The notes under the pieces are model-generated. The model was not told the DNA's origin and made no database searches. It saw nothing but the letters and a program-made list of their open reading frames with translations. 64,000 bases of DNA, taken from assembly GCF_001886815.1 (NCBI RefSeq), contig NZ_CP018099.1, forward strand, positions 4,090,501 to 4,154,500. The letters run 5' to 3'. The DNA comes from Caldithrix abyssi DSM 13497. GTDB lineage: Bacteria; Calditrichota; Calditrichia; Calditrichales; Calditrichaceae. Positions 40,049 to 59,611 of the stretch are shown here, piece after piece. Numbering within the stretch: position 1 is the stretch's first letter; each line of letters opens with the position of its first letter. A program made the translations under genes and the position numbers.

Positions 40049-41113
40049 TTACTTTTCTAAATAATAGCTGCCGTTCTTATCCGGCAAAATTAATTTTGGA
40101 CTAATCTTAATGTGCTCAACCGGCAAATCAGGATTTTTTATTCTTTTCATCAAAATTTCCACAGCCTTTTTCCCGAGTTGTTCATTGAATTGTTCAACGG
40201 TGGGATAGATCGGTCTTTCAAAACTGTTCGCATATCCAAAAATCTGTAAATTATCTGGCAAATGTTTCCCTTCCTTAAGAAGGATATCATCCAGTTCTAA
40301 CAGCATTTCATCATGATTAAAACAAACGCCAATGGGTGCTTTTTTTTCGCCCAGGGCATCAAGCCTGTTTATAAATTCATCAAGCGATATTACCGTTCCA
40401 GAATTGTCGCCGTAGAAGGTTTCCATGGCCTTTTTATAGCCCTTAATTTTTTCGGCCGTTGAAGTAATTTCCAGAAAAACGGTATCCGGGTAGACAAATA
40501 GTATGTCTTCACATAAGCGATTATACTTTAAATAGGCGCAAACTTTGAACATGCCCTCTTCATTATTCACAACAACATAGTCGGTTTCAAGTTCAGGGAT
40601 ATAACGATCCACCAGAACAAAGGGTACTCTTTTTTCTTTTAATTCGATGATATGGGAATAATCTCTGCGGTATTGATCTTCCAGAAAGATGACCAGACCA
40701 TCGACATGATTCTGAAGTAAATTGGAAATGGATTCCTTTTCTTTTTCATGGCTCATGTTCGAAATGGAGATGATCAACCCTATGTCAGATTTTTCAACAA
40801 TCTCCTTAACCCCGAATAAAATGCCCATCAAAATCTTGTACTGATGAAAATCTCTTGGAAGAATAAGCGCGATCTGTAGATTCTCTCTATTCCCATTAAT
40901 ACGATTGACAAAGATACCTTTTCCCTGTCGTTTCGTAATTATTCCGTCCTTCTCCATTTCATTCAAGGTTCGATTTACCGTCGTATAGCTGTAGCCCATA
41001 TCGCGCATAATTTCTCTGACAGTGGGCAGTTGATCATCCCTTTTCAGGTTATTCTCTTTAATATATTCGATTAATTTTCGTCTTAATTCTTCGTATTTTT
41101 TTAATGTATTCAT
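40049..41113 (-). CDS. GntR/LacI chimeric transcriptional regulator
   Basis: 354 residues. The N-terminal ~70 residues form a GntR winged helix (DQLPTVREIMRDMGYSYTTVNRTLNEMEKDGIITKRQGKGIFV). The rest is a LacI-type periplasmic-binding-protein fold (NLQIALILPRDFHQYKILMGILFGV ... PDNLQIFGYANSFERPIYPTVEQFNEQLGKKAVEIL). This is the AraR-like arrangement: sugar binding in the C-terminal domain controls DNA binding. It is the only regulator in the glycan locus and lies directly after the GH38 gene, so it probably senses a mannose-type sugar and autoregulates the cluster. A palindrome CAAAACATTTTG (41144-41155) just upstream is a weak operator candidate. Confidence 0.88.
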   Translation of the reverse strand: MNTLKKYEELRRKLIEYIKENNLKRDDQLPTVREIMRDMGYSYTTVNRTLNEMEKDGIITKRQGKGIFVNRINGNRENLQIALILPRDFHQYKILMGILFGVKEIVEKSDIGLIISISNMSHEKEKESISNLLQNHVDGLVIFLEDQYRRDYSHIIELKEKRVPFVLVDRYIPELETDYVVVNNEEGMFKVCAYLKYNRLCEDILFVYPDTVFLEITSTAEKIKGYKKAMETFYGDNSGTVISLDEFINRLDALGEKKAPIGVCFNHDEMLLELDDILLKEGKHLPDNLQIFGYANSFERPIYPTVEQFNEQLGKKAVEILMKRIKNPDLPVEHIKISPKLILPDKNGSYYLEK

Positions 41114-41143
41114 ACTTTCTCAATTAGTTCGTTCAGTTCATGT

Positions 41144-41155
41144 CAAAACATTTTG
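41144..41155. promoter_or_regulatory. Possible operator palindrome upstream of the GntR/LacI regulator
   Basis: A perfect CAAAA-CA-TTTTG palindrome lies 31 bases before the regulator start, in the 62-base gap after the GH38 gene. I found no second exact copy at the other gene starts in the cluster, so support is weak. Confidence 0.2.
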
Positions 41156-41175
41156 TAATATTAACATATTTTTTT

Positions 41176-44100
41176 TCATTTTTCAACATATATTTGCAGT
41201 GTATGTATCTCAAACGGTTTAAAATTTAAATTTATTTCGTTATTGTTTTTTAATTCCAGTTTTTTCTGTACTTCTTCTAACATATTCGTTAAATAAACTT
41301 CTTTGATCTTGAAGCCAAACGAAATCGTAGCCGTATTTTGCATTCCATAAGCTTCGTACAAGCGAACAATAATGGCGTTGTTATCTTCAGCCTTTTTTAT
41401 TGTTTCGACGATAACATTTTCTACATTTAATTGAACAAATGACATGGACGGCGGGAGCACGCCCGAATGCTTTTCGATTTTCAAAAATTTTACCGGCATA
41501 TTTAATTCGTAACCAGCCTGGATGACGCCGCCGGCAATAAAATCACCGGGGTGAGGTAATAAAGAATATGTAAATTCATGCCTGGTTCTATCTGCTTCCG
41601 GATCAGGATATTGCGGACTTCGAATTAAATTTAAATCCAGAATATTATCAAATACTTTATGCCCATATTTGGAATTATTGAGCAGAGCCACACCATAATC
41701 TTTTTGTGACAGATCAACCCACTTATGAGCGGAAATTTCAAATTTTGCAACTTCCCACGAGGTATTTTGGTGCGTTGGCCGTTTGATATAGCCAAACTGG
41801 ATTTCACTGGTTGATTCCTGTGTATGAATGGTCACAGGGAAAGAGGTTCTCAACATTTTATTGCTTTCTTGCCAATCCACTTCCGTAATAAAATCTATTC
41901 TGTTGCTCCCCGCAGTAAGAACAATTGTTTGCGTCATACTTGAGTTTTTATATTTTCTTCTTTGAACAAGCACAGCCCTGGGGCCGTCTACATAAGCCTG
42001 CGCATCTTCCAGAATAAATTGTCCCATTTCCCTTTTGTGATAATCTTTAAAAAAATCCCAGGCATCGCCATCATCATAATAAATTTTTAAAACGTTTCCT
42101 TTTTCTCCCCCGGGAATTATTTCGCGATTTTCATCTTTGTCGAAAATGGAAATAATGCTTCCATCATCTGCAAATCGGACTCGCAAACAATCATTTTCAA
42201 GAAGCTCTTTACGGGCGGTTAAACCAGGAACCTCAGGGATGTCGTCTTTCCCTTCGATGACGGTATAGCCAATGGAAGGTAACTGCGTTCGATACCACTT
42301 ATCCTGCACCTTAAGCCATACCTTCCTTTCCCATGAAAGTGAATTGTACACGTAAATTGGTTGCTCAAAATTCGATGAATCACAAACCGAAGCCACCGAT
42401 TTTATCACATCATCCGTCATCTCTTGAGCTTGGCTTAACATTTTTTCATAGCGAGGTAATGATTCTGAGTAAACTCTGGTAATCGACGATCCGGGTAAAA
42501 TATCATGAAACTGATAAAGAAGAACTTCTTTCCAGATTTTTTCAATTTTTTCCTGAGGATAAGTAAGTCCCGTAAAATTTTTGGCAAACACAGCTCCCAT
42601 TTCCAGTTCGCGTAAAGCAATTTCCATAACGCGGTTGAAGCGTTTGCTGCTGCCCTGAGTAGTGTAGGTTCCTTGATGAACTCCCAGATACAATTCTCCG
42701 CTCCAGGAAGCATAATCATTTCTGTTTTCTTCAATTCGTTCTAAAAACCTGGAAACAGGCTCCTGAACAACTGGCGCCATTCCTTCTAAGTTTTTTTCCC
42801 GCGCCAGGCGTTCCAGATGTTCCATGCCTGGTCCGCCGCCCCCATCGCCGATGCCATAAACCAGTAAACAATTTTCGGAAACACCTTTGTCTAAAAATTG
42901 CCGTTCGGTTTTTAACACAGCATGAGGAGCGGCAGAGCTGTTATAGGTTCCTTCCGGCGGCATGTGCACCAATACTTCAGAACCGTCGAGTCCTTTCCAT
43001 TTAAATGTGTGATGGGGATAGGTATTAAATCGATCCCAGGAAAGCTTGATTGTTAAAAAATATTCGACTCCGCATTTTTTCATTATTTGCGGCAACGCTG
43101 CGGTGTATCCAAAGGTATCAGGCAAAAACAGGTTTTTAATATCTTTACCGAACTCTTTTTGAAAGAAACGCTTTCCATAAAGAAATTGACGAACTAATGA
43201 TTCTCCTCCGACTAAATTGGTATCCGACTCGACCCACATGGCCCCTAACGGTTCCCACCGCCCCTGTTTAATTTTCTCTTTTATTCTGGCATATAATGAA
43301 GGATAATACTCTTTCATCCACTCATAAAGTTGCGGCTGGCTGGCGCCAAAAATAAACTCGGGATACATATCCATCATCTTAAGAACAGTAGAAAATGTTC
43401 TTGCCCCTTTTCGGATCGTTTCCCGAATTGGCCATAGCCAGGCCAAATCAAGATGGGCATGCCCTATGGCGCTAACTAACAGCGAATAATCCCCATTCTT
43501 TTTGGCTAATTCAGGCGCCAATATGCGGCGTGCTTCTGCGGCTTCTTCTTCGGTGTATTCTTTTAAAATTAGCAGCGCATTGTACAGGCTGTTCGCGATT
43601 CGGTGATAACGGGCAGAATCCTTCGGTAGTTGTGACATCAAATCAAACAGTACGTGAAAATCGTAATAAAACGACCGCATTTCGTCGTTACATATGGCGA
43701 TATTTGCTCTGGATATTTTGCCGCCATTTTGAAGGTTACCGAAGAGGTCGTTATTGCCGACATCCAGCCAAAGCGCAATCGTTTCTCCGCCCCGGGCTGG
43801 ATTTTTAAAAGGCACCACCTGTTTAACGGGTTTGCCCAGGGTGGTATCAAAAACGGAACTTCCTGATGTAAGACCCAGCACGGGATTGCCATCGCTATCT
43901 ACCACCATAGCTTCGCCGTTTAAATCAATTAGCAAAACGACATTTTTTCCTTTTGCCGACTCAGGGACTTTACCTTCTAACAGAAACCAAGCACAATCAA
44001 ATAGGCTCCCCCATTTATCTCCAATTTTCAGGGTGCGTTCTTCCCCGCTTTTTCGATTTTCAAAAGAAACAGGCTCCCTGGTTATCCATGCTTTTATCGT

Positions 44101-44193
44101 TAAATCGGCAATCGAAGTATAAATATTTTTTTCTATCTGCTTTAATCCTCTAGCAAGGATCGCATTCAAATCTTTTAAATCATACAGTGCCAT
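41176..44193 (-). CDS. GH38 alpha-mannosidase, cytoplasmic
   Basis: 1005 residues, full length for bacterial GH38, no signal peptide. The zinc-binding motif GHAHLDLAW gives H245/H247 and D249; the catalytic-nucleophile segment is LPDTFGYTAALPQI (D359), and MWVESDTNLVGGESLVRQ supplies further active-site residues. The C-terminal beta-sandwich domains (about 640-1005) are present. It removes alpha-linked mannose from short oligosaccharides inside the cell, with retention. It is flanked by the SSS symporter (38 bp upstream) and the regulator (62 bp downstream). Linkage preference is unknown. Confidence 0.94.
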   Translation of the reverse strand: MALYDLKDLNAILARGLKQIEKNIYTSIADLTIKAWITREPVSFENRKSGEERTLKIGDKWGSLFDCAWFLLEGKVPESAKGKNVVLLIDLNGEAMVVDSDGNPVLGLTSGSSVFDTTLGKPVKQVVPFKNPARGGETIALWLDVGNNDLFGNLQNGGKISRANIAICNDEMRSFYYDFHVLFDLMSQLPKDSARYHRIANSLYNALLILKEYTEEEAAEARRILAPELAKKNGDYSLLVSAIGHAHLDLAWLWPIRETIRKGARTFSTVLKMMDMYPEFIFGASQPQLYEWMKEYYPSLYARIKEKIKQGRWEPLGAMWVESDTNLVGGESLVRQFLYGKRFFQKEFGKDIKNLFLPDTFGYTAALPQIMKKCGVEYFLTIKLSWDRFNTYPHHTFKWKGLDGSEVLVHMPPEGTYNSSAAPHAVLKTERQFLDKGVSENCLLVYGIGDGGGGPGMEHLERLAREKNLEGMAPVVQEPVSRFLERIEENRNDYASWSGELYLGVHQGTYTTQGSSKRFNRVMEIALRELEMGAVFAKNFTGLTYPQEKIEKIWKEVLLYQFHDILPGSSITRVYSESLPRYEKMLSQAQEMTDDVIKSVASVCDSSNFEQPIYVYNSLSWERKVWLKVQDKWYRTQLPSIGYTVIEGKDDIPEVPGLTARKELLENDCLRVRFADDGSIISIFDKDENREIIPGGEKGNVLKIYYDDGDAWDFFKDYHKREMGQFILEDAQAYVDGPRAVLVQRRKYKNSSMTQTIVLTAGSNRIDFITEVDWQESNKMLRTSFPVTIHTQESTSEIQFGYIKRPTHQNTSWEVAKFEISAHKWVDLSQKDYGVALLNNSKYGHKVFDNILDLNLIRSPQYPDPEADRTRHEFTYSLLPHPGDFIAGGVIQAGYELNMPVKFLKIEKHSGVLPPSMSFVQLNVENVIVETIKKAEDNNAIIVRLYEAYGMQNTATISFGFKIKEVYLTNMLEEVQKKLELKNNNEINLNFKPFEIHTLQIYVEK

Positions 44194-44231
44194 TTTGTCT
44201 CCTTACATTCTTTTTAAGTTCCGCTAAACCA

Positions 44232-46190
44232 TCAATTTGTTACTTCTTTAGGCGGTAAATTTTTGTACCAAAACCTGTATAATCCGACAAGACAAATTGC
44301 AAAAATAGCAAATGTAATCATAAACGAATCATAAGTTTTAATTAAAAATTGCATTGGTAATAAAAATAGCGTTACCTGCCAGCAAAGGGCCAGGGGTAAG
44401 GCGATTATGTCGTTTTTATGTTCCCGCTCCATTTTTTTGCGAACTTCGGGATCCAGCTTATTTTTGTAAGGTTTCCAAAAACCGAAAGGTCGTGTGGTTT
44501 TATAAAAGTGTACCAGAACTTTCTCGTCCGTGGGGCTGGTTAAAAAAGTGCCGATAATAATGCCTGCCAATGAAATTAAAGAGAGAATGGTAAACTGTAG
44601 CCACTCAACTAAATCCGGGAAGAACATTCTCTGTAAAATGGCGGCAACCATGCCCACCAGTGTGCCAATGGCAAAGCCTTCGCCGTTGAAGCGCCACCAG
44701 TAAAATTTGAGAAAAGCAGGGATGGCTAAACCTCCGCCAAGCCCCATGATTATCCATCCCCACACATCATTGATGCTTCTGATGGTATAGGCTAATAAAA
44801 ACCCGCAAATGACCAAAAAGATAGTAAACGCGTAAGACATATAGATTAATTCTTTTTCTTTTGCTCTGGGACGTAGATGCCGCTGATAAATATCTCGCGT
44901 AAAAAAGGCTGTTGTAGCGTTAACCGTAGAATCAAACGTGGACATGGAAGCGGCAATTAACGCAACTAATAAAAGCCCTCGAACGCCAATGGGTATATCA
45001 AATAATATTACGGCAGGAAGGATACGCTCGGGATTAACGGTGCCTTCAAAACTGAGTAAATTTAATTTTTCCTGCCAATGATCCTGGAAAAGATGTTTTA
45101 GTCCGTCAATTAGCTCCGGTGGATAATTCATAGGCCTGTTCATTATTCCTGCAATGGTATCGGCCCAGCGCTCTTTTGGTACATGCGGCAAATAAGTTTT
45201 AATTAACGTTGCCGCCTGAGATAATAGCGTTTGATCAGGAAATATATCATTTACCAGATATAATCCTAAAACCGCAAAGCCAATCATCATGGGCCATCTA
45301 AACATCATCAATACTGTCCACATAAAGGAAAGCAGGCCGGTTTCCCGCTCATTACGGGCTCCAAAATATTTGGGATCGGCGCCTGAAGCCATGCCGCCCA
45401 AAACATTGCGCAACAAATAGAAAAAGGCGAAAAGCATTAAATGGCGGTACGCTTCGTAGCCTTTGGGCATGGTTGTTTCCCATTGAAGCGCCGAGCTCAT
45501 CCACTGGCTGTTTCCGGTTACTTTGTATGCCAGGGCAGCTAAAGAATCGGCATCTGTTATTTTCATTCCGGCCATTATTGAAATAAAAATAACCGCACTG
45601 ATAATTATAAACGATTGAAAAACATCGGTGTAAACCACTCCGTAAAAACCGGAAGTCATGGTGTACAATGTTGCCACGCCTAACATAATTAACGAACAGA
45701 CTAAGGGCGAAAACGGTAAGAACATGGATAAGAATAAGCCCACGCCTTTCACCATGTAAGCGAGCATACCGATGGTGCCGACGATTGTAGCAATAGCCGA
45801 GACCATGCGTGCGAATTGGCCTCCCCAACCTGTTCCGAACCGATATTCCATCCATTCCGCGCCAGTCATCACTTTTGAGCGGTAATGCCATTTACCCGTA
45901 TAAACCAGCATAAAGGCCAGAATAAGCACCGCTCCGCCTCTGAATTCAATGTACAACCCCCGTGGGCCCAGCATGAAAAGGAAAGATACAATGAGCATGG
46001 TTCCGGCAACATCTAAAAACGACGCCATCCCCGAAAAGCCCATAGCCCACCAAGGCAACTTATGGCCACCTAAAAAATATTCTTCGATGTTTTTCGAGGC
46101 ACGTTTTTGAAGGAAAATTCCCAGCCCGACAAGAATTAAAAAATAAATGGTTATAACGGTGTAATCTATTGTGTTTAGGTATTTCACCAT
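44232..46190 (-). CDS. Sodium:solute symporter (SSS family)
   Basis: 652 residues with about 14-15 hydrophobic helices. The N-terminal helix (TIDYTVITIYFLILVGLGIFL) leads into EEYFLGGHKLPWWAMGFSGMASFLDVAGTM, a signature of SSS transporters near the Na+ site. Length and wording resemble the sugar/inositol-type SGLT-like branch often found beside glycoside hydrolase genes. It likely imports mannose or a short manno-oligosaccharide with Na+. The gene follows a GxGYxYP lipoprotein gene by 34 bp and precedes GH38. Confidence 0.9.
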   Translation of the reverse strand: MVKYLNTIDYTVITIYFLILVGLGIFLQKRASKNIEEYFLGGHKLPWWAMGFSGMASFLDVAGTMLIVSFLFMLGPRGLYIEFRGGAVLILAFMLVYTGKWHYRSKVMTGAEWMEYRFGTGWGGQFARMVSAIATIVGTIGMLAYMVKGVGLFLSMFLPFSPLVCSLIMLGVATLYTMTSGFYGVVYTDVFQSFIIISAVIFISIMAGMKITDADSLAALAYKVTGNSQWMSSALQWETTMPKGYEAYRHLMLFAFFYLLRNVLGGMASGADPKYFGARNERETGLLSFMWTVLMMFRWPMMIGFAVLGLYLVNDIFPDQTLLSQAATLIKTYLPHVPKERWADTIAGIMNRPMNYPPELIDGLKHLFQDHWQEKLNLLSFEGTVNPERILPAVILFDIPIGVRGLLLVALIAASMSTFDSTVNATTAFFTRDIYQRHLRPRAKEKELIYMSYAFTIFLVICGFLLAYTIRSINDVWGWIIMGLGGGLAIPAFLKFYWWRFNGEGFAIGTLVGMVAAILQRMFFPDLVEWLQFTILSLISLAGIIIGTFLTSPTDEKVLVHFYKTTRPFGFWKPYKNKLDPEVRKKMEREHKNDIIALPLALCWQVTLFLLPMQFLIKTYDSFMITFAIFAICLVGLYRFWYKNLPPKEVTN

Positions 46191-46224: not shown

Positions 46225-47808
46225 TTAATTCCCTGAATACAAGTTTTTTCGAATTAAGTAAACAAATTCGTCTGGTGTAACCACCTTTACATTTTTATTG
46301 AGCAGGCTAATGCATTGGAGTACATCATCAACTCCATTTGACCACACATGAACAGGTATAAGGCTATAACCTTTTTCAGAATGAATATCCGCAGAAAAAT
46401 AGTTCAACTTTTCCGCCAGGGACTCCGGCGTCTCGAACCCTTCCCACAAATTAAAGCGCCCGGTGATAACCGGCTTCCCGTTCAGCCAGTCGATTTTTCC
46501 CATTCCGCCTGAATAATTGGAAAAATAGTAGAAAAATATAGCATCGATGTTTTGCTGATCTAAAAAGGGTTTTAAATATTCAGCCGACCGAGTATTGCCA
46601 ATAATATTAACGATACGCAAATCTGCTTTTTCCATAAATTGACTGGTTAACGAAGCGTATGTTACCAAATTTTTATATCGATCGGGAAATATATAGCCCA
46701 GCCCGGAAGGGCCGGCGATGAAATAGTCCCTTCCGGCATTCGTGGCGTCTGCACGGTCGTAAATGTATTTCATAACGGTCGGAGCCAGCTCGCTTAACGC
46801 AGGCGAAATGGTCCAGCCCAACTTTGCTTTTGAACGATTCGGGCTTCCGTACCAGCGTGAATTTGTGGTAAAATCATTCAAAAGCCATTGAATGTTATCT
46901 CCGTCGGTCATAACAAAACAAACCGTATGTACATTTTCAGTTATTTGCGTGTCCGGAGTTGCGGTTTGTTGTTTAAGGCTTACGCTAAAATTGGTTAAAG
47001 TAGAAAGATTCTTTGCCCAGTCGGCCGGATGAACCGGAATGGAATTCGCAGAGCTATGATAAATCAATTGAAATTCATCGCTGCCCCATCCTAATAAAGG
47101 AGTATTAGGTTGCATAAAAGCGAATATCTTCTGCGTTAATTCTGAAGTCAGCGGGCTATAAAACGTGATCATTTTTCCGAATACGGCATAATCGGCTAAA
47201 AAGGCAAAACGATCTTCTTTCTGGTAACACAGTATTCTATTATTGATGCTATCCGCATAATGGGTAAAAAACCAGGCGTCATCCGTATTTCTCACATCTT
47301 TTAGCAAGGGAATTCCCATAGCTTCAAGAATCGGTATGTTCTCGGCGGTAACAGCCACTGCCTTTGTTATGCCACATAATGAAATAGCCGTATTCACCGT
47401 TTGATCGTTAACATTACAAACAATATATCCTGCAATATCATTTTTAAAATGAGACAGCAATGCCTCAAAATTCGCTTGCAACGAGTAGTCCACTTCTACT
47501 CCGTAATTGTTTTTCAGGTCTTCAAGCCACTGCGCATCACCATCGTTAGCCAGGCGATAGATTTGCGGCTTTCTTTGGGCCAACACTCCCTGCAAAGTTT
47601 CTATGGTTAACAATTGAGCAGGCGAAAAATTATGATCATTAATAATAAATAGCTTATCTGGCCTGCTTGAAGCCGGATACGGGCTTAGCGCCAGACGCTC
47701 CGGCTGAGCAGAAGTCGTATCGCCGGCTGACACCGAACTGTTTTTTTCCTGACAGCTATATCCCAATAATGTCAAAAGGCTAAAAATAATCGATACTAAA
47801 CGAATCAT
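46225..47808 (-). CDS. GxGYxYP family putative glycosidase, probable lipoprotein (paralog 1)
   Basis: 527 residues. A signal sequence with a relaxed lipobox (LLGYSC, C19) suggests outer-envelope anchoring. The N-terminal region matches the GxGYxYP-family N-terminal domain (LFIINDHNFSPAQLLTIETLQGVLAQ). Family hallmarks are FVMTDGDNIQW (D302-G-D304-N305), LGWTISPALSELAP, and GPSGLGYIFP (G369-L-G371-Y372, P375). Reaction and substrate are not established for the family; the location beside GH38, GH92, a sugar kinase and carriers argues for a carbohydrate role. There is no T9SS tail. It lies 13 bp after paralog 2. Confidence 0.82.
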   Translation of the reverse strand: MIRLVSIIFSLLTLLGYSCQEKNSSVSAGDTTSAQPERLALSPYPASSRPDKLFIINDHNFSPAQLLTIETLQGVLAQRKPQIYRLANDGDAQWLEDLKNNYGVEVDYSLQANFEALLSHFKNDIAGYIVCNVNDQTVNTAISLCGITKAVAVTAENIPILEAMGIPLLKDVRNTDDAWFFTHYADSINNRILCYQKEDRFAFLADYAVFGKMITFYSPLTSELTQKIFAFMQPNTPLLGWGSDEFQLIYHSSANSIPVHPADWAKNLSTLTNFSVSLKQQTATPDTQITENVHTVCFVMTDGDNIQWLLNDFTTNSRWYGSPNRSKAKLGWTISPALSELAPTVMKYIYDRADATNAGRDYFIAGPSGLGYIFPDRYKNLVTYASLTSQFMEKADLRIVNIIGNTRSAEYLKPFLDQQNIDAIFFYYFSNYSGGMGKIDWLNGKPVITGRFNLWEGFETPESLAEKLNYFSADIHSEKGYSLIPVHVWSNGVDDVLQCISLLNKNVKVVTPDEFVYLIRKNLYSGN

Positions 47809-47821
47809 TTTGGCTATTTTC

Positions 47822-49480
47822 CTATTGTTTCTTGTATTGGATCAGGCAATCCATGAACTGATACGGCCCGACGACTTCAAACTCGCCACTACTTTGAAGG
47901 TTTTTTATGGTTTCAAAAACCGCATCAAAATTGTTATCCCAGGCATGGACGTAAACCATGACAAAAGGATATTTTTGGGCGGCAATTTTTATTTCATTCG
48001 TTAAATCATTCGCCGTTTGTTTACTGGCCCGCACCGCTTCTACAATGTACCCCATGTCATGTGTATCGGTTGAAAAAACATGACTACGTCCGGGTGGATA
48101 ATACGCATGGTCCGGTTCGACCATGAACACACCTTTGATATCCGAATTTTCCGCAAATTTTTGATAGGTGGTTGACTCCTTTCCGCGACTATCAATGGTA
48201 ACCATACAACTCATGTCCATATTTTTCATCGCTTCAGCCGTCAAATCGATAAAAGCCAATAGATTTGCTTCATCCAGCGAAGACGGATGTACATAGGCGT
48301 AACCGCTGGGGCCGGTTATAAAGGTGTCGTTAAAACCGGATTCTGCCGCGCTGTTATAATAATACCAGGCAATAAAAGGCGCGTAATGCACCAACGTAGG
48401 CGCCAGTGTCCATCCCAGAGGATACTTTCCGCGTTTGCTGTGTTCCCATAAAACGGTGCGCATGTGGTTGAAATCGTATTGTAAATTATCTCCGTCCGAA
48501 ACAATAAAGCAGGCGTATTTTTTGCCTTTTTCATAGATTCCGCTTTGCTCTTCCTGCTCTAATTTGGTAGGCGGCTGAAACAGACCGTGAAATGAAAGAT
48601 TGTTGGCAAAATCTGCCGGCAGCAGAAAGTCGTTGTTTTCACTCAACAAGGTTACCAGAGCTTTTTCCACGGTCACATTGTCCTGACCGGGCTGGGTAGC
48701 ATAGCTGGCGTCTGCCCATCCCAGCACCTGAATTTCTGGAGGATATTTTAATAATATCTGTTTTAGCAAATTGATTTCGTCCGTATTATTCAACGGATCC
48801 AGATTGATGGCAAAAAGCTTTTTAAAAATGATAAAATCTTTTAAATCCGGAATGTCATCGCGCAAATAGACCAAGCGGGTCATATCGCAACCCGCTAGCA
48901 GGCGTTCTAAAGCCCAGGCATATCCTTCCGCCTTTCCTGAAATATTTTGTACCTGACCGGAGTCAATAGTAGGGTAATACCATTTGTCCTGAGTAAAATC
49001 CATTAATAGCTTTTTATTAATATGTAATTGATCTGCCAATTGAGGCGTAAGGATAAGCGCATTGAATTGTGCGGCATAAGTAAAAGCTATGGTTAATGTC
49101 CAGGGCCTTGCGGTATCCCACAATACATAACCATCAGCATACGCATCTGCATCATAAATTAACGACACTATGGTTTTTAATTCCGAGCTGAGGGGATAAT
49201 TATCTTTATAATCCTCATACCATTTATAATCGCTTGTGCGGATAAATGTGTAAATCATAGGCAATTCCTTATTGCCTTCTTCTATTTTCCGGTTAAATAA
49301 GCCCTGAAGACTTTTAACCAACATCTGCTCGCCAATATCCAGATCTTTAAGAGATATATGATAAACCTTCATGGACGAACCAGATTGATTCATGTCTTTT
49401 TCGCATCCCCACATTCCGAGCAATAGTAAATTGATAAAAATCAAACTTAACCAGACAAATTTTAACTTTACTTTCATCAT
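47822..49480 (-). CDS. GxGYxYP family putative glycosidase, probable lipoprotein (paralog 2)
   Basis: 552 residues. A hydrophobic signal ends in LGMWGC (C26), a relaxed lipobox. Motifs are FIVSDGDNLQYDFN (D329-G-D331-N332), LGWTLAPTLVHYAP (355-368), and GPSGYAYVHP (390-399), where Ala and His replace the third G and the YP tyrosine of the family motif. VLGWADASYATQPGQDNVTVEKA is shared almost word for word with paralog 3 (54234-56189), so these two are the closest pair. The C-terminus is short (CLIQYKKQ) and lacks a sorting domain. Likely periplasmic or surface lipoprotein. Confidence 0.82.
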   Translation of the reverse strand: MMKVKLKFVWLSLIFINLLLLGMWGCEKDMNQSGSSMKVYHISLKDLDIGEQMLVKSLQGLFNRKIEEGNKELPMIYTFIRTSDYKWYEDYKDNYPLSSELKTIVSLIYDADAYADGYVLWDTARPWTLTIAFTYAAQFNALILTPQLADQLHINKKLLMDFTQDKWYYPTIDSGQVQNISGKAEGYAWALERLLAGCDMTRLVYLRDDIPDLKDFIIFKKLFAINLDPLNNTDEINLLKQILLKYPPEIQVLGWADASYATQPGQDNVTVEKALVTLLSENNDFLLPADFANNLSFHGLFQPPTKLEQEEQSGIYEKGKKYACFIVSDGDNLQYDFNHMRTVLWEHSKRGKYPLGWTLAPTLVHYAPFIAWYYYNSAAESGFNDTFITGPSGYAYVHPSSLDEANLLAFIDLTAEAMKNMDMSCMVTIDSRGKESTTYQKFAENSDIKGVFMVEPDHAYYPPGRSHVFSTDTHDMGYIVEAVRASKQTANDLTNEIKIAAQKYPFVMVYVHAWDNNFDAVFETIKNLQSSGEFEVVGPYQFMDCLIQYKKQ

Positions 49481-50707: not shown

Positions 50708-51853
50708 TCAGGCGTTTTTCAAGTTAATCAAAGCCGTCCAGGCAACATAAACAATAGCGGCCATGGGAACCAAAAAACCCATCAAAGTGGAAGATGTTAA
50801 ATCGGAAATCATCCCCATTATTGGTGGAATAATCGCTCCGCCTACAATGGCTGTAATCATTAAACCCGAAAGTTCGTTTGTTTTTTCGGGCATATGCTCA
50901 ATGGTAATGGAAAAGACCAACGGGAAGATATTAGCAAAAGTTAATCCTATAAAAATCACGGCAATAATGGCTATGGTTGCGCTACCCAAATAAAGCCCTA
51001 AAATTGATACTATAGAAAGAATTGAGGTAACAACAAAAAACGTTTTAGCTTTTACCCAGGTCAAGATCACACCGCCCAAAAATCGCCCAACCATTAATGC
51101 CGTAAAAAACAACCCCGTTCCCAGCAGGCCCAATTTTTGAATATTAATACCAAATTGTTCTTTTAAATAAAGAGGTATTCCAGAGCTCATGCACACTTCC
51201 GCTCCTACGTAAACAAAAATAGCCATGACCATCATTAGGACATATTTGTTCTTAAGAAGAGCCAGGCAAGAACGAAAAGACGCCGGTTCCGATTTTTCGT
51301 ATTTTTTTTCCTCTACCTTTAATGTACTCACAGAAATAATGGTCAATAAAACAATTACCCCGTAAATAGGAAAAACAATTTTCCAATCGGCATGCCAGTA
51401 CCTTACCGCCAAAACAGGCAAAACAGGTCCGCTTAATGAACCAATGGCCTTAACAAACTGACCAAGACTGAGATTACGGGCGTATTTCCCTTCGGCGGAA
51501 ACATCGCGCATGATGGGGTTGCCGGCAACTTGCATAATCGTAGCCCCGGCGCCTAAGAATAAAACGGACAACAGTAATATTACAAACGAACTTAAAGTAA
51601 ATGTTGGTAAAATCATTCCCAGAAAAGCGATAGAAAGTCCAAGCAAAAGAATAAACTTTTTACCTTTTTTATCCTGATAAATGCCAATGGGAAGCGAAAG
51701 GATTCCAAACATGATGAATCCCATAAAAGTCAACGTAAAGGCCACCGTGTTACTTAAGGCAAATGATTCTTTAGCAAGCCCTACCAAAGGCCCTACCACG
51801 TCTCCGAATCCCATGACTAAAAAAGCCAAAAAAATTGGAAGCGTCCGGCGCAT
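50708..51853 (-). CDS. MFS sugar transporter (FucP/NagP-like)
   Basis: 381 residues with about 12 membrane helices. The sequence FLVMGFGDVVGPLVGLAKESF and LPIGIYQDKKGKK at the helix 2-3 loop fits the FucP-type sugar:H+ symporter branch. It is a second carrier in the locus next to the ROK kinase gene, which together suggest import then phosphorylation of a free hexose. It follows the GH92 gene by 31 bp. Confidence 0.88.
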   Translation of the reverse strand: MRRTLPIFLAFLVMGFGDVVGPLVGLAKESFALSNTVAFTLTFMGFIMFGILSLPIGIYQDKKGKKFILLLGLSIAFLGMILPTFTLSSFVILLLSVLFLGAGATIMQVAGNPIMRDVSAEGKYARNLSLGQFVKAIGSLSGPVLPVLAVRYWHADWKIVFPIYGVIVLLTIISVSTLKVEEKKYEKSEPASFRSCLALLKNKYVLMMVMAIFVYVGAEVCMSSGIPLYLKEQFGINIQKLGLLGTGLFFTALMVGRFLGGVILTWVKAKTFFVVTSILSIVSILGLYLGSATIAIIAVIFIGLTFANIFPLVFSITIEHMPEKTNELSGLMITAIVGGAIIPPIMGMISDLTSSTLMGFLVPMAAIVYVAWTALINLKNA

Positions 51854-51884: not shown

Positions 51885-54188
51885 CTATTGCTTTTGCAAA
51901 AACGCTTTTAATTCATCTACAGAAAGCTTAATATCCACTGACGAATGAGGTAAATCGTCTTTATGAACGCCCCAATATTTGTTGGGCTTATCGCCCATTT
52001 TAAAGGTTAACGTACCCCCGTTTAAGATATCGTCATGCGTTATATATGTTTTGGAATAGGATAAATCATCTTTTTTAACGGATTGTATGTAAAGGTTATC
52101 TTTGCCGTTGTTTTCGGTTTTTATGGTAAATTGCCGTCCGTTTTCAAGATAAATCGTTACTTTATCAAAAATAGGACTGCCGAAAACATATTCTTTTAGC
52201 CCGGGGCAAACCGGGTAAAAGCCCATTGCGCTAAAGATATACCAGGCCGACATCTGTCCGCAATCTTCGTTACCGCACAGGCCGTCCGGGTTTGCCGTGT
52301 AAAGACTATCCACAATGGTCCTGACAATGCGCTGTGTTTTCCAGGGCTTTCCGGCATAATTGTATAGATAGGCGATATGATGGCTTGGCTCATTGCCCTG
52401 AGCATATTGACCCAACAATCCTGTAATATCCGGAAGACTCGGGTTTTCAGGCGGTTCCTGATAGAAAAGAGAATCTAACTTTTTAACAAATGGCTCTGCT
52501 CCGCCAAAGAGTTCGATAAAATTTTCCAGATCCTGTGGGGCAAAAAAGGTATATTGCCAGGAATTTCCTTCGGTAAAATCTTCACCGCCCTTAGTATGAA
52601 TTGCAGCCGGATCAAAAGGGATACGCCATTGTCCGTTCGAATCTTTTCCTCGCATAAAACCGATTTCAGCATCAAACACATTTTTATAGAACTGAGCGCG
52701 AGCATTAAAAAGTTTAAAATCTTTGTCTTTACCCAGCGCTTTAGCCATTTGAGCAATACACCAGTCGTCGTAAGCATATTCCACAGTTCTGGAAACGGAT
52801 TGATGCGCTTCTTTGTCAAAAGGAATATAACCCAGCGTTTTGTAGTACTTTAACCCCCGATGGTCTTGCATGGCGCTGTGTTTCATGGCCTGGTAAGCGA
52901 GCTCCGCATCAAAATCGCGTATTCCTTTAATGTAGGCATCAACAATAACCGGTATGGCATGGTAACCGATCATGGTTCCGGTGTAATTGCCGGCTAATTC
53001 CCAGATCGGTAAAATGCCCCCTTCCTGATATTTGGCCAGCAGGGTTCTGATAAAATCGATCGTCCGTTTTTGATCGATAATGGTGAACAAAGGATGCGCC
53101 GCTCGAAACGTATCCCAGAGTGAGAAAATGGTGTAGTTTACAAAATCTTTTGCCTGATGAATTTTGCCATCCATCCCCCGATATTTTCCATCCACATCCA
53201 TAAAAAGATTCGGGGCTATCATGGCGTGATACAAAGCCGTATAAAAAGTAATGCGTTGTTCTCTTGTACCGCCCTGCACTTCAATTTTATTGAAATGACG
53301 GTTCCAGGCTTCTTTGGCCCGAGTTCTGATTCGCTCAAAATCCCAATCCGGCGCTTCCTTTTTTAGATTTTTCAGAGCGCCTTCTTCGCTTACCGCAGAA
53401 ATCCCCACTTTAACCAGAATAGCCTCACTTTGCCCGGTTTTGTACTTTACATAGGCCTTTATATTTTTGCCAGTAGCCGTTCTGCGAGATTTTTCTAGCT
53501 TGTTGTCAACGGCAATGCCATATTCTTCAAAGGGTCTGGAAAAAAGGGCGGCAAAATAAACTTTTTGATCTCTTGCCCATCCTTCTGAACGACGTAAGCC
53601 GGTAATTAAACTATCATTGACAAAGTTCAGTTTAGCTTCTATTACATTATCCGGCCCCAAACCGTGTAATAGATCGATTATGATTTGTGCTTCGTCGCTT
53701 GCAGAAAAGGTGTACTTATGAAAACCGACGCGTTGCGTAGCGGTTAATTCCACCTGAATCTGATAATCATCTAAAAAAACGCGATAATAGCCGGCTTCGG
53801 CCATTTCTTTTTCATGACTAAAGCGCGAGCGATAGCCGGATTGGGGATTTTCTTCCGTTCCTGGCTGAAGATGCAGTTTACCGACCGTCGGCATAAACAG
53901 GATATCGCCGTAATCAATACAGCCCGTTCCTGAAAGATGTGTATGGCTGAAACCGATTATGGTACTATCGGAATAGTGATAACCTCCGCAGGCGTCCCAA
54001 CCACTTATTCTGGTATCCGGACTTAATTGCACCATACCAAAAGGGACCGTGGCGCCCGGGAAAGTATGCCCATGTCCTCCGGTTCCGATAAAAGGATTGA
54101 CATATTGAGTAAAATCTTTGTTCTGATTTTGACAACCGATCAATGTGACTGTAAAAATTAAAAACAATAAACTTTTACAAATATTCAT
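51885..54188 (-). CDS. GH92 alpha-mannosidase lipoprotein
   Basis: 767 residues. The signal peptide has a good lipobox (LIGC, C19). YVNPFIGTGGHGHTFPGATVPFGMVQLSPDT at the N-terminus is the GH92 hallmark. The late segment GLCGNEDCGQMSAWYIFSAMGFYPV (E641/D642) holds the catalytic acid region. GH92 enzymes are Ca2+-dependent, inverting exo-alpha-mannosidases, mainly alpha-1,2 but also 1,3/1,4/1,6, acting on N-glycans and yeast mannan. As a lipoprotein it would work outside the inner membrane, upstream of GH38. It is 45 bp after GxGYxYP paralog 3. Confidence 0.95.
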   Translation of the reverse strand: MNICKSLLFLIFTVTLIGCQNQNKDFTQYVNPFIGTGGHGHTFPGATVPFGMVQLSPDTRISGWDACGGYHYSDSTIIGFSHTHLSGTGCIDYGDILFMPTVGKLHLQPGTEENPQSGYRSRFSHEKEMAEAGYYRVFLDDYQIQVELTATQRVGFHKYTFSASDEAQIIIDLLHGLGPDNVIEAKLNFVNDSLITGLRRSEGWARDQKVYFAALFSRPFEEYGIAVDNKLEKSRRTATGKNIKAYVKYKTGQSEAILVKVGISAVSEEGALKNLKKEAPDWDFERIRTRAKEAWNRHFNKIEVQGGTREQRITFYTALYHAMIAPNLFMDVDGKYRGMDGKIHQAKDFVNYTIFSLWDTFRAAHPLFTIIDQKRTIDFIRTLLAKYQEGGILPIWELAGNYTGTMIGYHAIPVIVDAYIKGIRDFDAELAYQAMKHSAMQDHRGLKYYKTLGYIPFDKEAHQSVSRTVEYAYDDWCIAQMAKALGKDKDFKLFNARAQFYKNVFDAEIGFMRGKDSNGQWRIPFDPAAIHTKGGEDFTEGNSWQYTFFAPQDLENFIELFGGAEPFVKKLDSLFYQEPPENPSLPDITGLLGQYAQGNEPSHHIAYLYNYAGKPWKTQRIVRTIVDSLYTANPDGLCGNEDCGQMSAWYIFSAMGFYPVCPGLKEYVFGSPIFDKVTIYLENGRQFTIKTENNGKDNLYIQSVKKDDLSYSKTYITHDDILNGGTLTFKMGDKPNKYWGVHKDDLPHSSVDIKLSVDELKAFLQKQ

Positions 54189-54233: not shown

Positions 54234-56189
54234 TTATTGAAGCAAAATCATCTTCTTTGTTTTTATTTTATTGTCAAATTTTATCTGATAAAAATAGATA
54301 CCACTGCTAACTTTCCGTCCCTGATCATCCGTGCCATCCCACTTAACCTGATGTTTCCCTGTGGATTGAACATTATTAATCAATGTTTTGATTTTTTGCC
54401 CTCTGGTATTCAAAACATTCAATTCTACTTCACCCGCGGCGGGCAATGTGTAAGCAATAACCGTTTCCGGATTAAAGGGATTGGGGTAATTTTGATGTAG
54501 CGTTAAATCGGACGGCGTCAACTTGGATGAATTATCGGGTTCAATGGCTGTTCCCAGGTGATATTGCATCAGACAATCCATAAACTCAGCCGGGCCGACC
54601 ACTCTGTAACTTGTATCGGCCTTAAGATCCTGATAAATCCCGTAAACAATATCCAGATTATCGAACCATACATTGAAATAAACAAAAACAAATTTATTGA
54701 AAAAGGCATTGAGTCTTATTTGATTTACCAGGTCGCTTACGGGTTGATCATCTACCCGCACCATTTCCACAATAAGCCCAAGATCATGATTACCGGACTG
54801 AAAAACATAATCATATTCAGGCAAATAGGCGTTGTGTTCTTTTTCGGTTAAAAAAACCCCTTTAGCCGAAGTATGCTCAGCAAATTTCTGATAGGTTTCC
54901 TGTTCCTTACCGGTAATATCAATTGATACGATGCACGACATATCCATCTCTTTCATGGTCATGTCGGTTTTTTGCAGAAAATCGATCAAAGCGTTGTCAT
55001 CAAGAGATGACGGATACGCATAGGAAAAGCCGCTTGGCCCGGCCACAAAGGTATCGTTAAAATCATCCTGGGCTGCACTATTGTAGTAATACCAGGCAAT
55101 AAACGGCGCAAACTCGTACAATCTGGGCGAAATCGTCCAACCAACAGGTACTTTGCCGCGGTAGGAATTTTCCCACATTTTGGTGCGCATATAATTCATA
55201 TCATATTGCAGATTATCGCCGTCGGATGCGATAAAACAGACATACTTTTTACCTTGTTCATATTTGCCGGTTTTTTCCTGTTGCTCCAGTTTACTCGGGA
55301 AATCGAACAGGCCATGAAAAGACAAATTATTGGCATAATCCGATGGAACAAAATACATGTTATTTTCGCTCAAAATCTTAACGAACGCCCTTTCCACCGT
55401 CACCTCATCTTGTCCTGGTTCTGTAGCAAAGCTACCATCGGCCCAGCCCAGCATGGTTGCGCCCACTGGATATTGAGACAATATGGTATTTAACAGGGCG
55501 ATTTCGTCTTCATTGTTCAGGGGATCGAGATTTATCGTAAAAATATTGTCAAAGAAAATCATATCTCTTAAATCCGGGATATTGTCTTTGAGCGTGATTA
55601 TTTTGGTAGAGTCGCATTGCGGCAACAGATGATTCATGGCCCAGGTATATCCGTCCAGCTTTCCCGTAATAGTTTCTGCGGCACCGCTATTCATATCCGG
55701 ATAATACCATTGGTCCTGAGTAAAATCCATCAACAATGTTTTTTCGGCGGCAATATTTAAATCGCTTGCCAATTGCGGGGTTAAAACCATGGCCTGATGT
55801 AACGCGGCATAGGTACAGGCAATATTAAGCGTCCAGGTGTTGCCCGGACTCCACAACACATAATTATCGATATATTGTTTACCATAACTATACAAAGTGG
55901 AAAATTGTTTTAAATTGGTTGAAAAGCCGTATTGACTTCGATAATCGACCAACCAATCCAGGTCTACATCTCTGTTTATTGTATAGACGGAATGTAAAGA
56001 TTCATCGCCGTTTTTAACCTTCTGGTTTACGATGCCCTGAATACTTTTAATCAGCATTTGTTCAGGGACGCTTAAGTTGTCGATGAAAATATAGTAAACA
56101 TTGGCTTTCAGCTTTATCGGCATCGTAAAGACCATGAGTAAGAATATTCCGATCAAAAATCGCTTACTTTTTTCCTCACAGTTTTTCAT
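54234..56189 (-). CDS. GxGYxYP family putative glycosidase with T9SS tail (paralog 3)
   Basis: 651 residues. A signal peptide (about 10-30, ending LKAN) precedes the GxGYxYP N-terminal domain (YYIFIDNLSVPEQMLIKSIQGIVNQ). Motifs are FIASDGDNLQYDMN (D323-G-D-N326), VGWTISPRLYEFAP, and GPSGFSYAYP (384-393), the best match to YxYP in the window. The C-terminal domain (about 560-651) starts NYPNPFNPETVIAYTLP and ends KTKKMILLQ, a T9SS sorting signal absent from the otherwise similar paralog 2. It is thus predicted to be exported across the outer membrane. Confidence 0.85.
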   Translation of the reverse strand: MKNCEEKSKRFLIGIFLLMVFTMPIKLKANVYYIFIDNLSVPEQMLIKSIQGIVNQKVKNGDESLHSVYTINRDVDLDWLVDYRSQYGFSTNLKQFSTLYSYGKQYIDNYVLWSPGNTWTLNIACTYAALHQAMVLTPQLASDLNIAAEKTLLMDFTQDQWYYPDMNSGAAETITGKLDGYTWAMNHLLPQCDSTKIITLKDNIPDLRDMIFFDNIFTINLDPLNNEDEIALLNTILSQYPVGATMLGWADGSFATEPGQDEVTVERAFVKILSENNMYFVPSDYANNLSFHGLFDFPSKLEQQEKTGKYEQGKKYVCFIASDGDNLQYDMNYMRTKMWENSYRGKVPVGWTISPRLYEFAPFIAWYYYNSAAQDDFNDTFVAGPSGFSYAYPSSLDDNALIDFLQKTDMTMKEMDMSCIVSIDITGKEQETYQKFAEHTSAKGVFLTEKEHNAYLPEYDYVFQSGNHDLGLIVEMVRVDDQPVSDLVNQIRLNAFFNKFVFVYFNVWFDNLDIVYGIYQDLKADTSYRVVGPAEFMDCLMQYHLGTAIEPDNSSKLTPSDLTLHQNYPNPFNPETVIAYTLPAAGEVELNVLNTRGQKIKTLINNVQSTGKHQVKWDGTDDQGRKVSSGIYFYQIKFDNKIKTKKMILLQ

Positions 56190-56284
56190 AAAAATTTCTC
56201 CTTATTCGCAGCTTATTTTTGTCTAAAGTCTGATTTTTATCCAACCTACGTTTACTTTTAATCCCGTCGGTTTTTCGCGTCCAC

Positions 56285-59200
56285 TTAACGTATCAAAATC
56301 ATTTTTTTAACGAGCTTTTTATTTTCAAATATTAACTGGTAAAAATAAATGCCGCTTGCTACACTTTCATTTAATTCATTTCGGCCATCCCAGATTACCT
56401 GGTATTCGCCAGGCGTTTTTACCTCATCCACAAGAGTTTTTACCTTTTCTCCAAAAATATTGTAAACGTTTAGAACAACACGACCAACCTGCGGAAGCGC
56501 AAAACGAATATGAGTCACCGGATTGAAAGGATTCGGATAGTTTTGACTAAGCGCAAAATCTTGCGGTATCGAAACATTCGCTTCAATATTAACAGGGGTC
56601 GCGCTTATGGTTACAACGGTCGGGGCGCTCCATTCGCTCTCGTTTAAGCTGGTATTGCGTGTTTTAAAGCGTACTGAAAAGCGGCCTGTATCGGCCCAGG
56701 CATGCGTTTGGGTAAAAAGATATCCCGATGCTTGAAAGTCCGACCATTTCGAAGAATCGCCGTCTCCCCAGTCAAATCGAACAGAAACGCTGTCACTATC
56801 AATCGAAAAGGCCCTAACGCTAAACGATAAGGTATCTCCGACAAATCCCTGAGTCGGTCCCTCAATATGCTCCCTCTCTTTTTGGCGTAAAATTATGACT
56901 TCATCAATCCATAAATCTTCGGCGCCGGTAGTAAAAACACGGGTTTCGATGGTGCCCTTACCATCGTGTTTAAATGGCAAGTAGAAGAATTGATATCTAT
57001 CTTTAGCGTTAAAATCTGTACCCTGAATATATTTTTGGCAAAGCGTGGTTTTATCGGCGTTTAAATTGAACACATCTAAAAGAGCCACCTCACTACTTGT
57101 TAACTCCCCTACTTTAAGACGGAAACAGGCTACATATTCGCCGGCGGCCATGGATTCGTAAGGCCCAAATACGCTATGGGCGGGAGCTTCCGGCGCATTT
57201 TTTTGCGTGAACCAGGCCGTTCCGTGGACGGCTGAACCATCTTCTACTTGCTGGCCATAACGATGATTTAGCTCAATGGCGTCCCAATTACCGGTATATT
57301 CACAATACCAATTATCAGGCGCCTGATAATCCAACACCACCATCGGTATGCTCAAACTATCTTGCACTAAGGCAGAAGACAAAGTTAACCGGGCGTCTTT
57401 TAGAATTTCAGATGACAATACAGGTTCATTTAGAGTAATTCTGAATTCACCATGAGTCATCTTTTCTTGATAAGCCTGAGCTTGCTGCTGATAATTGGTG
57501 ACTTTAACGCCGACGGGCGCCGTTAGATTAATTTTTACAGAAATAGGCGTTTCAACAATTGCTCTAAATTTGAATGGCAAAAACAAAGCGCCATTTACCA
57601 GAACCGGTATAAGTCTTTTAGGAGCGTCAATTAGCAGTTTACCCTGATAATAGCGGGAAACCATGGTCATCAATTGACTGGGTTTAACAACCTGGAAAAC
57701 CTCAGGATCCAGATGATCGGTAATCCATTTTACCCCTTCAAATCCGGTATAATAACAGGTCGGATGCACCGGCACAAAAAGCGGACGTTGGGTCGTGGAT
57801 TGTGCAAGCGCATTTAACTCCTGCAGAATCATCTCCGGATCGGATTCGCCAATCATGGGCACGCGCGTTCGAATGATCGAAAAGTCGGTAAAGGGAAAAA
57901 CGCCAGGCGTGCGTCCGCCGTAGCCTTCTTCACAGCCAACCGTAAGGTCCTTAAAATACTTTCTATATTTTAAGACCACGTCAAATGGAATATTGTTGGC
58001 AGAAAGAATGCTTATTGATTTTAAACCTGTAAGCTCAAGATACCGTCTTGTTTCCTGAAGATATTCATCCAGACGATCTGCAGGAAATTTTTCCGGATGG
58101 CAATAACCGATACCGGAAGCAGAAGCTACTAAATCATCATTATCAGTAGCCGTTTCGTAATAATATTGAAGAACGGCTGGCGCCATATCGTAAAGCAACG
58201 GTTGCAGTTCCCATCCGAAGGGGATGCTTCCGCGATCGGGACTTAAATATTGACGTCCCTGAAAACCGTTCGTCCAATGGAAGGCATCACCGTCGGAAAT
58301 AAGGAACGAAACATAGATTTTGTTTTCATCGATTGCCGGGGTTTCGGATAATGACGGTGGGGTAAAGCGCTCGGGTTTTACCCAATGGTGAAATGAAAAA
58401 TTAGGCGCCCCACAACAAATCACCGCATTGCCGTGAAGAGAGGCCTGCGCCACATAAGACCCTTCGTCATCTCGTCCCGTCTGGAACGAAACCCATCCGA
58501 GCACAAAGCCCGGATGCTCCATCGCTTCCATTATTTTATCTTTAATCGCATATTCTTCCGGATAATCGTATTTTCTGCTACTCAAATCAAAACAAAACGT
58601 GCGGTAAAAAATGGCCATATCCAGTTCGCGGGAACCGCCAATGGTGCTACCGGTAACTTTGGAGCTAAACGATACGGTGGTAAACGGACCGTTGGGCGTA
58701 TTCCCTACCTTGACCATGTATTGATTAAAGGCTAAAAACTTCAAAATGATCTGGCCAGAGTCGCTTAACTGAAAACGATAGGTAAAATACTGAGTTAAAT
58801 CGGCAATACGATCCCCATCGGGATCAAACCAGGAGTGATCAGGATCGTAAAGATAAGTTTTTTCCTCTTCCGTTCCTGTTCTCAAATTAACGACTTCTTT
58901 TCCTCCCTGGATGATTTTAAGGCTTCGAAGTTTTGTTCCGTTTCCATTGGTTTTAATTGCGTCTTCAAACCGAACATAAAAATCGGTGCCATTAACGTAT
59001 GGAGTAATATCCACACTTATCCATTTGATATCGCCTAAGGCTAAACTGGTAACAAACTTTTTATTGCATTGATCCCAATAATTTTCAAAAGCCCAGTCAT
59101 AAACCTGATCTTTAGACATCCCAATAAATTTTTGACTGACATCTTCTTTTAAAGGAATACCCAGTGTTTTAATCTTTTTTTCAAAGTATTTACTGACTAC

Positions 59201-59611
59201 AATCCAATCATGTATTCCGGATAAGGTAGCGGCTATATTATAGCTTTCGAGATTGCCGTAATCCCAGAGAACGTATCCTTTAATTTTATCTCTGAAAATG
59301 GTAAGTACTTGGTAAGGATCTGATAAACTGATAAATTGAAACCCGTAACGGGAACTATAATATTGTTGCCATTTGTCATCGATATCATCAAATCGTAAAA
59401 AAATAAACGGCCCATTTTTGTTAACAATACCCTGCACCGAAGAAAAAAGCGATTTTTCCTCCCAGCCCATGCCCGACACATCAATTTTATACGCGGTATT
59501 CTGCGCAGGGCAGCCTACCCCATAAAAAAAAGAAAAAAGAAAGAATATAAAAAATATCCAGCCTTTTTTTATCATCAAACTCTTTTTTTTAAAATCTTTG
59601 CAAAACAACAT
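56285..59611 (-). CDS. Multidomain GxGYxYP family protein with T9SS tail (paralog 4)
   Basis: 1108 residues from the ATG at 59611; the Met at 59575 (MIKKGWIFFIF) is an equally good start. After the signal peptide comes the GxGYxYP N-domain (MGWEEKSLFSSVQGIVNKN). It is split by an inserted beta-rich module (about 194-330). The catalytic-like part has FLISDGDAFHWTNG (D440-G-D442-A443, Ala where the others have Asn), FGWELQPLLYDMAP, and SASGIGYCHP (500-506). A jelly-roll-like domain (about 775-920), a PKD-type domain (FDWGDGDSSKW, about 925-1010) and the T9SS domain (about 1020-1108) follow. This is the first gene of the long mannose-locus run, preceded by a terminator. Confidence 0.83.
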   Translation of the reverse strand: MLFCKDFKKKSLMIKKGWIFFIFFLFSFFYGVGCPAQNTAYKIDVSGMGWEEKSLFSSVQGIVNKNGPFIFLRFDDIDDKWQQYYSSRYGFQFISLSDPYQVLTIFRDKIKGYVLWDYGNLESYNIAATLSGIHDWIVVSKYFEKKIKTLGIPLKEDVSQKFIGMSKDQVYDWAFENYWDQCNKKFVTSLALGDIKWISVDITPYVNGTDFYVRFEDAIKTNGNGTKLRSLKIIQGGKEVVNLRTGTEEEKTYLYDPDHSWFDPDGDRIADLTQYFTYRFQLSDSGQIILKFLAFNQYMVKVGNTPNGPFTTVSFSSKVTGSTIGGSRELDMAIFYRTFCFDLSSRKYDYPEEYAIKDKIMEAMEHPGFVLGWVSFQTGRDDEGSYVAQASLHGNAVICCGAPNFSFHHWVKPERFTPPSLSETPAIDENKIYVSFLISDGDAFHWTNGFQGRQYLSPDRGSIPFGWELQPLLYDMAPAVLQYYYETATDNDDLVASASGIGYCHPEKFPADRLDEYLQETRRYLELTGLKSISILSANNIPFDVVLKYRKYFKDLTVGCEEGYGGRTPGVFPFTDFSIIRTRVPMIGESDPEMILQELNALAQSTTQRPLFVPVHPTCYYTGFEGVKWITDHLDPEVFQVVKPSQLMTMVSRYYQGKLLIDAPKRLIPVLVNGALFLPFKFRAIVETPISVKINLTAPVGVKVTNYQQQAQAYQEKMTHGEFRITLNEPVLSSEILKDARLTLSSALVQDSLSIPMVVLDYQAPDNWYCEYTGNWDAIELNHRYGQQVEDGSAVHGTAWFTQKNAPEAPAHSVFGPYESMAAGEYVACFRLKVGELTSSEVALLDVFNLNADKTTLCQKYIQGTDFNAKDRYQFFYLPFKHDGKGTIETRVFTTGAEDLWIDEVIILRQKEREHIEGPTQGFVGDTLSFSVRAFSIDSDSVSVRFDWGDGDSSKWSDFQASGYLFTQTHAWADTGRFSVRFKTRNTSLNESEWSAPTVVTISATPVNIEANVSIPQDFALSQNYPNPFNPVTHIRFALPQVGRVVLNVYNIFGEKVKTLVDEVKTPGEYQVIWDGRNELNESVASGIYFYQLIFENKKLVKKMILIR

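Follow-up and report, generated by a model that had tools for sequence, protein, structure and literature searches.

The question raised by this locus of Caldithrix abyssi is what four GxGYxYP proteins do beside two mannosidase-type enzymes, and how a large glycan would reach them across the outer membrane. We have reasonable confidence in one answer: an operon for the use of alpha-mannosides, either high-mannose N-glycans or mannan of the fungal type, whose TonB importer lacks SusD. The window, that is, the whole stretch of DNA analysed, is 64,000 nucleotides long and comes from a genome that is a single contig of 4,978,541 bp.

Extent of the row and its counterpart in Ignavibacteria

Open reading frame calls and Pfam searches place ten intact genes at 40049-59611, all on the minus strand and spaced 4-95 bp apart. 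Their order of transcription is GxGYxYP 4, GxGYxYP 3, GH92, MFS, ROK, GxGYxYP 2, GxGYxYP 1, SSS, GH38 and the GntR/LacI-type regulator. The initial annotation had described this same-strand, closely spaced layout, which the gene calls bear out, and Pfam confirmed every family that it named (GntR with Peripla_BP_3, GH38, SSF, four GxGYxYP, ROK, MFS and GH92); its count of eleven genes comes down to ten, and is reached only if 59740-63522 is added. The row extends past both ends of this interval, upstream to a TonB-dependent receptor gene and downstream to a peptidyl-prolyl isomerase (PPIase) gene, which follows the regulator gene after a 32-bp gap. The whole same-strand row comprises 15 genes over ~32 kb with spacings of 4-135 bp, and the glycosidase genes run in the same direction as those of the importer, at close spacing:

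38205-40016, minus strand: PPIC-type peptidyl-prolyl isomerase, lipoprotein-like at its N-terminus; the row ends here (Rotamase_2)
40049-41113, minus strand: regulator with GntR-type DNA-binding and LacI-type sugar-sensing domains (PF00392 and PF13377)
41176-44193, minus strand: predicted GH38 alpha-mannosidase, Ams1-like (PF01074, PF09261, PF07748, PF17677)
44232-46190, minus strand: sodium:solute symporter, SSS (PF00474)
46225-47808, minus strand: GxGYxYP protein 1, BT2193-like, lipoprotein-like N-terminus (Pfam; alignment to 3SGG)
47822-49480, minus strand: GxGYxYP protein 2, lipoprotein-like N-terminus (Pfam)
49561-50703, minus strand: ROK-family sugar kinase (PF00480)
50708-51853, minus strand: MFS sugar carrier, GluP/FucP/NagP type (Pfam, NCBIfam)
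51885-54188, minus strand: predicted GH92 alpha-mannosidase, lipoprotein-like N-terminus (Pfam)
54234-56189, minus strand: GxGYxYP protein 3, T9SS sorting tail (Pfam, TIGR04183)
56285-59611, minus strand: GxGYxYP protein 4, module-like insertion in its N-domain, T9SS sorting tail (Pfam, TIGR04183)
59740-63522, minus strand: 1260-aa secreted multi-module protein, CBM9-like domain, T9SS tail (Pfam, TIGR04183)
63658-64000, minus strand: PorV/PorQ-family gene, 3' end inside the window, extending to genome position 4155195
Genome 4155219-4158383, minus strand: gene for a 1054-aa protein with a T9SS-tail-like end
Genome 4158423-4161077, minus strand: TonB-dependent receptor gene, with CarboxypepD_reg_2 N-domain, plug and barrel (Pfam, NCBIfam)

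The next gene of note beyond the TonB receptor gene lies on the opposite strand. Scans for promoters and terminators returned matches at shuffled expectation and were uninformative. The GC content of positions 1-8000 of the window is 0.37-0.39, against 0.40-0.48 across the remaining window.

The enzyme cluster has a history. Rigden et al. 2014 (BMC Bioinformatics 15:196, PMC4071793) described a C. abyssi cluster, evidently this very locus, in which four GxGYxYP genes form two pairs parted by GH92, MFS and ROK genes, with GH38 nearby. The central observation was thus already published, and the strong new context for GxGYxYP function that the initial annotation had seen here was already given in that paper. 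Its text on the cluster does not include the TonB receptor, 1054-aa, PorV-family and 1260-aa genes, the shared module described below, a Melioribacteraceae counterpart or a neighbour test with a control family. What we add is the corrected extent of the operon, the cross-phylum cluster, a controlled enrichment test and the ~145-aa module.

A single ~40-kb stretch of a Melioribacteraceae genome (L022; G040:C34) brings together orthologs of nearly all operon genes. Identities there are 59% for the receptor, 63% for the 1054-aa protein, 55% for the PorV-family protein and 44% for the module protein, and 53-54% for two GxGYxYP proteins, 35% for the PPIase, 52% for the MFS carrier and 62% for the ROK kinase. 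The adjoining 20 kb hold a strong SSS ortholog (916 bits), two regulators, a GH38 and three GH92 genes. An Ignavibacteriaceae contig (L023) has the 1054-aa, PorV, module-protein and GxGYxYP genes in the same order, and the ortholog of the 1260-aa protein occupies the same place in both. Since orthologous genes are arranged in this way in Ignavibacteria too, we conclude that the layout is not due to chance.

These rows also bear on a different reading of the locus, as an N-glycoprotein system of deglycosylation plus proteolysis, with an M36-like peptidase and the PPIase included, rather than a free-mannan system. An M36-like peptidase gene is next in line (34327-37875), an M36 gene follows the GxGYxYP row of the Ignavibacteriaceae contig too (29% identity), and the PPIase is conserved in the row. 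C. abyssi moreover grows on complex proteinaceous substrates (PMC5317091). However, a 329-bp gap sets the M36 gene apart, M36 is absent from the Melioribacteraceae row, and the triplet of TonB receptor, 1054-aa and PorV-family genes heads non-protein loci as well. We regard a glycoprotein system as rather unlikely.

GxGYxYP proteins and their mannosidase neighbours

The genome's four GxGYxYP genes all lie within this locus. Every one of the four proteins carries all four GxGYxYP-family domains above cut-off (PF16216, PF20957, PF20958 and PF14323). Proteins 2 and 3 are 54% identical, other pairs share about 23-30% identity over their aligned parts, and protein 1 aligns to 3SGG with an E of 2e-62. 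Rigden et al. proposed that GxGYxYP proteins form a new family of glycoside hydrolases, with a Glu272/Asp331/Asp333 site in BT2193 (PDB 3SGG), partly on the basis that BT3857 and BT3859 are placed in an alpha-mannan-responsive Bacteroides PUL (PMC4071793); in the literature searched, we found no functional study of these proteins after theirs. The Glu and both Asp residues are invariant in 6 of 6 divergent members (the four copies, a second Calditrichota protein (L006) and BT2193), and the putative catalytic residues of GxGYxYP 1 are E245, D302 and D304.

The partner enzymes narrow the likely substrate. The only GH92 of the genome sits in this locus, and its nearest solved structures in a PDB search are the GH92 entries 6f91 and 7zgm. 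GH38 has Ams1 as its best PDB match, and its N-terminus has no signal peptide, which points to a cytosolic enzyme. Both are predicted to be alpha-mannosidase-type enzymes. ROK matches 3mcp best, a PDB entry deposited as a glucokinase. Several observations weigh against the alpha-mannoside reading: the ROK and MFS proteins are non-diagnostic for mannose, we saw no member of an endo-mannanase family such as GH76 or GH99 among the genes of the row, GxGYxYP occurs in only 2 of 40 Calditrichota genomes, and the C. abyssi genome paper names starch, cellobiose, xyloglucan and glucomannan alone, with no growth on alpha-mannan reported (PMC5317091).

We then turned to the genomic neighbours of the family. 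Scanning GTDB genomes with an alignment of the BT2193-like subset returned 80 loci; when all four copies were aligned, the result proved too diverse for scanning, and GxGYxYP 2 as a single query found no match in the scan of GTDB genome contigs. The neighbour test covered 50 genomes with GxGYxYP (123 genes at 102 sites, 10-kb radius), with expectations calculated from gene number and genome size, contig ends ignored, and with sites that are phylogenetically non-independent. Among the matches listed, GH38 lay near at least 13 GxGYxYP sites against 1.94 expected (6.7-fold, P 5e-8), the expectation being scaled to the genes among those matches. GH92 lay near 4 sites against 0.86 expected (4.6-fold, P 0.01). 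GH3 served as the control: as common in these genomes, it lay near 0 sites against 1.47 expected among the matches listed (scaled in the same way), and as the only control family it is a thin one. Generic glycosidase islands were dismissed as a cause of the mannosidase link, since GH3 was without enrichment.

The link between GxGYxYP and mannosidases is real but not universal: many GxGYxYP loci have no mannosidase inside 10 kb, as in marine Flavobacteriales and Kribbella. The PF14323 neighbourhoods look as the initial annotation had anticipated, enriched in GH38 and GH92, and its alpha-mannoside target is supported by the GH92, the Ams1-like GH38 and the neighbour enrichment across phyla; for the phosphomannan side-chain role that it had also suggested, we found nothing in specific support.

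Several lineages have arrangements of their own. Small genomes of marine Flavobacteriales/Crocinitomicaceae (L026, L028, L030, L034, L036) hold exactly one GxGYxYP and one GH92 gene, unlinked, and in most of them a conserved gene for a 509-aa protein precedes the GxGYxYP gene. GxGYxYP clusters adjoin GH38 in cell-wall-less lineages (Mycoplasmatota strain zrk7, L091, and a Mollicutes bacterium, L100), with three GxGYxYP genes and GH38 inside about 10 kb in strain zrk7. A gene for a HAD-like hydrolase lies between GH38 and GxGYxYP in one Ruminococcaceae and one Planctomycetes genome (L073:8956-9939, L087:8990-9976), a possible hint at phosphorylated sugars.

Glycan-binding or scaffold proteins that present the mannoside to GH92 and GH38, with Glu/Asp/Asp as a ligand or metal site, would be compatible with a family of no known activity, with an N-domain that has no relatives among enzymes (PMC4071793) and with the extra module domains on several copies. 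Such a role is improbable in our view: the Glu and both Asp residues do not vary across six divergent members, the Ignavibacteria importer row has two to three co-directional GxGYxYP genes as its only recognisable glycosidase candidates, and the many genomes with GxGYxYP away from any mannosidase offer a scaffold nothing nearby to serve. We favour a glycosidase role on the same glycan, the reaction being putative; most likely, the GxGYxYP proteins are glycosidases that would act on the same alpha-mannoside through the proposed Glu/Asp/Asp site. The divergence of the four copies suggests different linkages or locations.

The outer-membrane importer and the ~145-aa module

The TonB-dependent receptor gene lies 3.9 kb past the right edge of the window, on the same strand as the enzyme genes, to which it is connected by same-strand genes spaced 23-135 bp. 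Of the initial statement that the locus has no SusC/SusD-type TonB system, the part on SusD holds, but the part on a TonB importer does not, as the receptor is found in the row; the system seemed to be lacking because the window edge cuts the operon. SusD_RagB (PF07980) has zero matches genome-wide, and the SusC/RagA model scores 57.5 bits on the receptor, far under its cut-off of 368. The 1054-aa protein has no SusD family match in Pfam, and its structural model is beta-rich and of low confidence (pLDDT 62).

About a dozen copies of the triplet (TonB receptor, 1054-aa-type protein with T9SS-tail-like end, PorV-family protein) occur in the C. abyssi genome. Five of the others head glycan loci, with a GH130 pair, GH3 and SSS, an alpha-amylase with CBM20, GH127 and an MGH1-like gene, and a Melibiase-like gene and SSS, respectively; other copies precede peptidases or no recognisable enzyme. 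The triplet is therefore a general uptake cassette, by type not mannan-specific. A 528-aa transposase-like protein is encoded at no fewer than three, that is at least 3, genome sites (L005:10161-11747, L008:13621-15207, L018:890-2476), and one copy of its gene lies ~2.6 kb past the TonB receptor gene.

That the triplet in this row forms a unit of its own, merely adjoining the enzyme cluster, as the row's largest gaps (135 and 128 bp, either side of the 1260-aa gene) and the triplets near peptidases or no recognisable enzyme might suggest, is very unlikely, given that the Ignavibacteria triplet, closer to this one than the C. abyssi paralogs are, precedes genes for the 1260-aa protein and GxGYxYP. 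The Ignavibacteria orthologs of the receptor and 1054-aa protein are more similar (at the identities given above) than the C. abyssi paralogs, at only 32-46%, and we therefore assign the importer genes to the mannoside system.

In the 1260-aa protein, a putative glycan-binding surface protein, an unannotated ~145-aa module occurs five times in full and twice in part (residues 27-175, 382-476, 474-616, 611-671, 715-858, 863-1007 and 1011-1155). AlphaFold models the module as a confident beta-sandwich (pLDDT 95.8). Pfam has no match for it, nor does the PDB have a credible one by sequence, and a fold search returned weak, generic beta-sandwich matches (TM <=0.57), so we assign it to no known CBM family. 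GxGYxYP enzymes of Ignavibacteria carry the module at the C-terminus, and in matching open frames it lies inside GxGYxYP enzymes of Paenibacillus, Bacillus, Kribbella and Actinopolymorpha. In Actinopolymorpha, a GH92 also has it at the C-terminus, in the same 1441-aa open frame as the GH92 match. A few proteins of unknown kind likewise carry the module, and 0 of 39 other Calditrichota genomes have it. Further sites are:

L022, 13115-13567: ~145-aa module
L023, 12552-13004: ~145-aa module
L119, 1480-3306, minus strand: ~145-aa module

Because the module is common to GxGYxYP, GH92 and a putative binding protein, its distribution suggests that it binds alpha-mannosides. A mannose-binding CBM32 is found on the Neobacillus novalis GH92 (PMC10167667); the module is likewise an accessory beta-sandwich on a GH92, but with neither a Pfam nor a credible PDB sequence match it is not assignable to CBM32. 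More tentatively, and with the balance somewhat against it, the triplet may be what Calditrichota and Ignavibacteria generally have as a counterpart of SusCD, without SusD, and the module, at the same time, a new alpha-mannoside-specific CBM family.

Proposed working of the operon

We propose that this predicted operon works like a Bacteroidota PUL, minus SusD. TIGR04183, the type A sorting domain, scores above cut-off in GxGYxYP 3, GxGYxYP 4 and the 1260-aa protein, and judging from their N- and C-terminal sequences these three are predicted T9SS cargo located at the surface, where they would catch and process the glycan. Together with the 1054-aa and PorV-family proteins conserved alongside it, the TonB-dependent receptor would then import oligosaccharides, which the predicted lipoproteins GH92, GxGYxYP 1 and GxGYxYP 2 would trim. 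Mannose or short mannosides would enter through the MFS and SSS carriers, the ROK kinase would phosphorylate the hexose, and the Ams1-like GH38, predicted to be cytosolic, would complete the breakdown of imported oligosaccharides. The GntR/LacI-type regulator may sense a breakdown product.

Two known kinds of locus resemble this one. In Xanthomonas, SusD-less carbohydrate utilisation (CUT) loci combine a TonB receptor with glycosidases and inner-membrane carriers; in C. abyssi, by contrast, a T9SS-tail-like 1054-aa protein and a PorV-family protein are conserved along with the receptor, and the surface proteins bear T9SS tails. Bacteroides thetaiotaomicron MAN-PUL3 (PUL 69), which is activated by yeast mannan (PMC4071793, PMC7825182), similarly has a GxGYxYP pair (BT3857 and BT3859) with GH92 and a TonB-type importer. 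MAN-PUL3 has a SusC/SusD pair, whereas the C. abyssi locus lacks SusD and has T9SS-tailed enzymes and a PorV-family gene.

If this reading is right, the target of the orphan GxGYxYP family becomes testable, with alpha-mannosides favoured by a cross-phylum statistic that has a negative control. The module is a small, expressible domain, and its ligand would point straight to the substrate. Feeding on large glycans across the outer membrane, outside the SusCD world, would become testable as well.
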